The position numbers and the translations under genes were made by a program. DNA of 8,263 nt from Actinomycetes bacterium (lineage in GTDB: Bacteria > Actinomycetota > Acidimicrobiia > Acidimicrobiales > RAAP-2). The DNA is taken from the NCBI GenBank assembly GCA_021799915.1, contig JAJYZN010000128.1:1-8263 (forward strand), read 5' to 3'. This document shows, piece by piece, positions 6,004 to 6,017 of the stretch. Numbering within the stretch: the first letter of the stretch is position 1; every line of letters begins with the position of its first letter. The notes under the pieces are model-generated. The model made no database searches. It was given only the letters and a program-made list of their open reading frames with translations, and was not told where the DNA came from.

Positions 6004-6017
6004 TAGAACAGGTTCTA
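6004..6017. promoter_or_regulatory. KstR-like operator palindrome
   Basis: The 14 bases TAGAACAGGTTCTA form a perfect inverted repeat (TAGAAC / GTTCTA around AG). They match the published KstR consensus TnnAACnnGTTnnA at every fixed base. KstR is the TetR-family repressor of steroid (cholesterol) catabolism in mycobacteria and rhodococci, released by a steroid CoA thioester. The site sits 33 bases upstream of the thiolase ATG and 43-55 bases upstream of the two possible starts of the divergent oxidoreductase. It overlaps a candidate -10 box, a position suited to repression, and its symmetry allows it to act on both genes. No kstR gene is in the window, so the bound regulator could be a KstR paralogue. 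I saw no second copy in the window. Confidence 0.75.

Follow-up and report, generated by a model that had tools for sequence, protein, structure and literature searches.

A predicted KstR-type operator upstream of fadA5 and echA19 homologues in a member of the Acidimicrobiia

Positions 6004-6017 of the window, by which we mean the whole 8,263-nucleotide stretch of DNA that was analysed (G000:C48:2066-10328, on contig C48 of a 2.46-Mb, 155-contig genome that is 95.7% complete), are on sequence grounds a KstR-type operator, beyond what chance would produce. The element matches the KstR consensus, occupies an intergenic position before homologues of KstR-regulon genes and is conserved before the same gene in near relatives. 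With a probability of roughly four in five, it is the operator of a KstR-like TetR repressor that controls fadA5-echA19, with a second site further downstream acting likewise and a steroid CoA compound releasing the repressor. The sites, their conservation and their class-wide co-occurrence with KstR-like genes are observed; from these we infer binding, repression, the ligand and a repressor of the organism's own encoded in the unassembled part of the genome.

The forward strand of the window carries ilvE, cimA, an alpha/beta hydrolase gene, an acyl-CoA dehydrogenase gene, fadA5 and an echA19-like gene, and a quinone oxidoreductase gene is divergent from fadA5 (Table 1). The initial annotation had named the two genes downstream of the operator as fadA5 and echA19 homologues, and the family models in Table 1 agree with that naming; against the EchA19 model itself, the hydratase scores 376 bits, under the cut-off of 400. 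FadA5 reaches the family model of steroid 3-ketoacyl-CoA thiolases, yet its identity to the proteins of five mycobacterial loci is 65-69%. The operator lies 33 nt from the start codon of fadA5 and 43 nt from the start of the oxidoreductase gene. A relative of the acyl-CoA dehydrogenase directly precedes the operator in two related loci (L046 and L049). The open reading frame that follows echA19 has a counterpart conserved at this place in relatives and no match in Pfam at 1e-5, and the guess that it encodes a PaaI protein was not borne out.

Table 1. Positions of the features discussed, in window coordinates unless a contig is named.
Feature	Position	Strand	Remarks
Acyl-CoA dehydrogenase	3846..4976	+	
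Divergent PIG3-like quinone oxidoreductase	4977..5960	-	TIGR02824 266 bits, below cut-off 297
Predicted KstR-type operator TAGAACAGGTTCTA	6004..6017	none	Both 6-bp arms perfect; AG/CT centre not symmetric
Weak -10-like hexamer TAGATT	6016..6021	+	Shares the last TA of the operator; putative fadA5 promoter
fadA5-type steroid 3-ketoacyl-CoA thiolase	6051..7202	+	NF005889 665 bits, above cut-off 515
echA19-like enoyl-CoA hydratase	7213..8001	+	Directly after fadA5; PRK07799 413 bits, cut-off 316
ORF after echA19	7998..8263	+	Family not known; continues past the window end
AMP-binding fadD-like gene	C48:10740-12275	-	Under the cut-offs of the best 25 NCBIfam models, top FadD4
SDR gene	C48:12371-13279	+	
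KstR-type protein (L164, L180)	G000:C119:7663-8244		193 aa; no other KstR-type protein was found in the assembly

The element TAGAACAGGTTCTA agrees with every fixed position of TnnAACnnGTTnnA, the KstR consensus of M. tuberculosis and M. smegmatis given in PMC1995591, as the initial annotation had stated. Its description there as a perfect palindrome does not hold, because the central AG is not self-complementary; 12 of the 14 positions are symmetric. It is the sole match to TnnAACnnGTTnnA in the window, even allowing one mismatch (0.32 expected). Over the 2,460,503 bases of the genome, the full form TAGAACNNGTTCTA occurs at two places, C48:8069 (in the window) and C48:12317 (outside it), against an expectation of 0.003 under a first-order model trained on 97 kb of DNA from the same genome. 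The loose form TNNAACNNGTTNNA occurs at 14 places, compared with 10 for a reversed control pattern, and its enrichment was rejected as evidence. Ten of the 14 loose-form places fall within open frames of at least 120 aa and are possibly coding, and one (on C12) lies in no frame longer than 46 aa. Frame length is indecisive in this GC-rich DNA, because long open frames also contain both full sites and a site on contig C55; these three were called intergenic solely from their neighbouring genes. The C55 site (C55:19628-19641, or L040:5629-5642) reads TAGAACACGTTTCA, a KstR-like half-match at 10/12, and adjoins a ribulose-phosphate 3-epimerase gene (PF00834) and a gene that by eye is ribD-like.

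Conservation of the site was followed in a near-relative set of 15 loci with FadA5 identities of 77-85%, of which 11 carry labels beginning with Acidimicrobi-, two are labelled Actinomycetes, one actinobacterium and one Burkholderiales. The fadA5 site is present at 12/12 in 11 of these loci, at 11/12 in two and at 10/12 in two, and the DNA around it is otherwise unalignable. In the four nearest relatives (L046-L049; FadA5 identity 84-85%), all 14 letters, the centre included, are identical, where FadA5 itself differs by 15-16%. Three of the four carry the label of Acidimicrobiaceae MAGs and one (L049, contig PLZH01000031.1) that of Burkholderiales. This last locus carries the same cluster and both operators; its bin is probably mixed and the Burkholderiales label wrong.

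Upstream DNA was examined in 53 of the 66 loci collected, one of which (L062) is without upstream DNA; those omitted (L098-L107 and L109-L111) are distant homologues or fragments. Of the 28 loci from Mycobacteriaceae and the Actinomadura group, 27 carry the strict consensus no more than 250 nt from fadA5, often as TAGAACNNGTTACA or TGAAACNNGTTCTA. No strict site was found upstream of the FadA5 genes of L065 and L070 (likewise Acidimicrobiales), of L089 and L090 (proteobacteria) or of five further, more distant homologues (L094-L097, L108), nor within 250 nt of the fadA5-like gene on a Rhodococcus plasmid (L045). A comparison of window positions 5940-6100 with plasmids returned five Rhodococcus matches, L045 among them, all confined to the first 51 bases of fadA5 and not covering the operator. 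Sixty-eight other class genomes had matching FadA5-like genes, and in the 29 examined (59-77% identity) the strict consensus was found upstream of none, with just 41-43 upstream bases offered by L137 and L139. The variant TAGAACNNATTCTA, at 11/12, occurs upstream of the fadA5-like gene in three of these 29 (L118, L120 and L128). In the Actinomadura group, the same variant lies upstream of the kstR gene (L158, L159 and L161-L163).

The second full site lies 4.2 kb downstream of the first, between the fadD-like and SDR genes, so that both sites stand between genes of a single cluster. L047, L051, L054-L056, L059 and L093 keep a site of 11-12/12 between their fadD and SDR genes, and in L049 the site precedes fadD. 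The second site is letter-identical, centre included, in L047 and L049, and in G200, the genome of L048, it has another centre. In nine loci, echA19 is far from fadA5, and two of these (L052 and L053) have an 11/12 site before echA19. Two or three full sites per genome were counted in 13 of the 19 genomes searched. Elsewhere in the class, a KshA-type Rieske oxygenase gene in G190 is preceded at 34 nt by a 12/12 site, and a P450 gene in G052 has a site at a distance of 50 nt. In G087, a 12/12 site precedes a KstR-like gene by about 120 nt, counted to where the match to that gene begins, and other genomes carry 12/12 sites close to homologues of echA19 or fadD. In the set of site loci chosen for fadA5, 12 of 14 include a homologue of KstR or of the window cluster (E<=1e-10), as do 13 of 28 in the second set; of these 25, out of 42 site loci in total, five show only matches of 25-34% identity.

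Full sites and KstR-like genes tend to occur in the same genomes. Among 198 genomes of the class, a full site occurs in 46, a KstR-like gene (E<=1e-20) in 56 and the two together in 40, so that the gene is present in 40 of 46 site-bearing genomes compared with 16 of the other 152 (p=1.6e-22, a value that treats genomes as independent though they share ancestry). The reversed-pattern control overlaps with the gene in 4 of 22 genomes (p=0.32). A full site is found with no KstR-like gene at E<=1e-20 in G134, in four genomes of 0.8-1.1 Mb and in the genome of the window. These cases, with the commonness of the loose consensus, would suit an inverted repeat that arose by chance or that serves an unrelated regulator; the co-occurrence with its flat control, the expectation of 0.003 full-length sites in the genome and the conservation before fadA5 make such an origin very improbable.

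The KstR-like proteins of the class were assessed with the NCBIfam equivalog model NF033703, for which 280 bits is the cut-off. Of five mycobacterial genomes, three reach 331-337 bits and two lack a strong match; the cut-off is reached by none of the 198 class genomes (best 174 bits) and by none of 172 family genomes, 36 of which have a kstR-like gene at 141-165 bits. For the KstR-like protein of the near relative G198, the best solved structure is KstR (117 bits), followed by the Rhodococcus TetR protein 3bjb (90 bits) and then by matches at 40 bits. In the helix-turn-helix core, the G198 protein agrees with a mycobacterial KstR at 26 of 33 residues, and the identity is 63% over the whole DNA-binding part versus 29% in the ligand part. 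Both PF00440 (TetR_N) and PF17925 (TetR_C_20) are present in the one protein inspected (L172), as in mycobacterial KstR, and the motif GTxYRYF is common to all 22 canonical KstR-like proteins. Unlike mycobacterial kstR, the acidimicrobial genes compared have no site of their own: none of 15 (two of them identical) has a site of at least 10/12 within 400 nt upstream, whereas such a site is present at 12/12 in three of three mycobacterial kstR genes and at 11/12 in five of five from the Actinomadura group. The two identical proteins, L151 (G199:C31) and L152 (G209:C36), come from different MAGs, and one of these MAGs carries a further KstR-like copy of its own (L171); the identity of the two proteins is probably due to contamination during binning.

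In the mechanism that we propose, a repressor dimer on TAGAACNNGTTCTA would cover the start of the fadA5 promoter and keep fadA5-echA19 off, probably together with the following open reading frame; the fadD-like and SDR genes would be repressed in the same way from the second site. In 7 of the 15 relatives, TATAAT or TATACT occupies the -10-like place, and since it begins with the last TA of the operator, a bound dimer would cover the -10 box. The overlap of operator and -10 box proposed in the initial annotation is seen in these relatives and is weak in the window. Steric repression at this locus is a step that we infer, because the hexamer here reads TAGATT and no promoter was detected when 5900-6080 was scanned for a sigma-70 consensus. 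Release of the repressor by the CoA thioester of a steroid or sterol-like acid is proposed by analogy with M. tuberculosis KstR, the solved complexes behind the analogy being, by their titles, 5cw8 and 5cxi.

The operator had further been suggested to silence both divergent promoters. This is unsupported, because a relative of the quinone oxidoreductase (E<=1e-25, 60% coverage) was found beside none of 28 related fadA5 loci within the flanks examined; the operator is retained in most of these loci. Divergent control of the oxidoreductase gene was accordingly rejected on gene order.

The search for a KstR homologue in the genome itself gave a divided answer: the canonical gene was not found, and one KstR-type protein with a diverged helix-turn-helix is present. 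In the 95.7%-complete assembly, the best NF033703 score is 55 bits, the best match to the KstR-like protein of G198 is 49 bits, and there is no KstR-like gene at E<=1e-20. The genome has 23 TetR_N matches, none of which contains the GTxYRYF motif; 12 of them (L011-L020, L001 and L003) were scanned against NCBIfam and the other 11 were covered by the genome search with the KstR model and the tree alone. The cyclase-family gene (PF04199) that neighbours kstR in relatives has no match in this genome either.

An assembly gap is the most likely cause of this absence, because both operators are intact, and loss of the gene is possible. The own repressor of the organism would then lie in the unassembled part of the genome. 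In G047, kstR is followed by a hydrolase gene; contig C75 carries a relative of this gene with no kstR alongside, and starts inside a decarboxylase gene of the G212 type (42% identity). In G212, the kstR block lies two open reading frames, one of them an ABC ATPase, beyond that decarboxylase gene. By the order of G047, kstR would be expected on C75, where it is absent; by that of G212, it would lie beyond the contig end, which makes a gap possible. In genera that have kstR, the five listed family-mates without the gene are all under 90% complete (116 matchless genomes are unlisted). These observations bear on the idea that the sites are relics, two operators that have not yet decayed in a lineage that recently lost KstR. 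The missing kstR-like gene and cyclase-family neighbour, in an assembly this complete, and the hydrolase relative standing on C75 without kstR would fit such a loss. The incompleteness of those five family-mates and the start of C75 inside such a decarboxylase gene would fit a gap instead, and the letter identity of the first site in L046-L049 and of the second in L047 and L049, despite 15-16% divergence of FadA5 and unalignable intergenic DNA, speaks against relics, which we consider unlikely.

The one KstR-type protein of the assembly is encoded on contig C119. It matches PF17925 with 33.5 bits (cut-off 26.5) and not PF00440, and other residues stand in place of the GTxYRYF recognition motif. 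Among solved structures, its top four matches are all KstR entries, at 53 bits. In a FastTree phylogeny, the protein groups with KstR at the end of a long branch, and the node that separates the 22 canonical proteins from it has a support of 0.46. At E<=1e-10, it has at least six homologues, one of them 99% identical (P0001). The model of P0001 (pLDDT 85) has an intact TetR fold and best matches the complex of KstR with operator DNA, 5fmp (TM 0.83). Conservation of the helix-turn-helix and ligand domain, respectively, is 89/87 in the closest distinct homologue, P0002, and 67/78, 60/74, 50/70 and 35/54% in P0003-P0006, these four showing the reverse of the 87/64% of canonical acidimicrobial KstR-like proteins (91 pairs).

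As the only KstR-type protein present, with an intact fold in P0001 and KstR among its nearest structures and in its tree group, the C119 protein might still read, or co-read, the old operator. The missing PF00440 match, the replaced motif, the less conserved helix-turn-helix of P0003-P0006 and the support of 0.46 at the separating node speak against this, and we hold such reading to be doubtful. The protein probably does not read the KstR operator, and it is possibly a ligand sensor that no longer does so. It is likewise improbable that classical KstR was replaced or supplemented by this KstR-type sensor, with a relaxed DNA-reading helix and a conserved ligand domain, as a partner beside letter-perfect operators. 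The reading that we prefer remains a KstR-like repressor encoded in the unassembled part of the genome.

The regulon may serve side-chain-like beta-oxidation only. HsaA (ring cleavage), the sole gene of the steroid pathway tested genome-wide, has no match in this genome at E<=1e-30, and full ring degradation is therefore unsupported. HsaA exceeded its cut-off in 2 of 19 genomes, both of them mycobacterial controls.

Of the mycobacterial genes concerned, we take Rv3546 to be fadA5 and Rv3516 to be echA19. According to PMC1995591, both fadA5 and echA19 are listed in the mycobacterial KstR regulon, and KstR sites of M. tuberculosis lie at Rv3545c/Rv3546 and Rv3515c/Rv3516 as well as at Rv3520c/Rv3521, the last being letter-identical to the 14-mer of the window. 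By the same source, the fadA5 site of M. tuberculosis reads TGAAACGTGTTCTA, as opposed to the fully symmetric arms found here, and the neighbour of kstR in mycobacteria is a fadE gene, in place of the cyclase-family gene of the acidimicrobial family. The present genome also differs from the mycobacterial system in having just two full sites and a different gene order. By its relatives, the lineage belongs to the Acidimicrobiia; the initial annotation had conceived of a KstR-type operator in a lineage neither mycobacterial nor rhodococcal, with a different gene order, and this is what was found.

Nocardioides belongs to the class Actinomycetes. In Nocardioides simplex, KstR sites have been predicted before steroid genes, outside the mycolic-acid group, according to PMC7807495 and PMC9782250; unlike that case, the host class here is Acidimicrobiia and HsaA was not found. 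A search of the open-access literature, with subscription papers outside its scope, returned no report of KstR in Acidimicrobiia. What is described here thus belongs to a kind of regulon already known, in a class on which that literature yielded no report.

A comparative study of 2012 (PMC3388012) traced the origin of KstR to the ancestor shared by Mycobacterium and Rhodococcus and regarded KstR relatives in more distant organisms as paralogues. Because the KstR-like helix-turn-helix, the operator and the target genes are all found in Acidimicrobiia, our data suggest that the pairing of regulator and operator goes back much further than that ancestor or has moved between classes, and they put into question the dating given in PMC3388012. 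The small acidimicrobial regulons, with two or three full sites, offer a setting in which to study the targets of the ancestral regulator at a stage that preceded full cholesterol catabolism.
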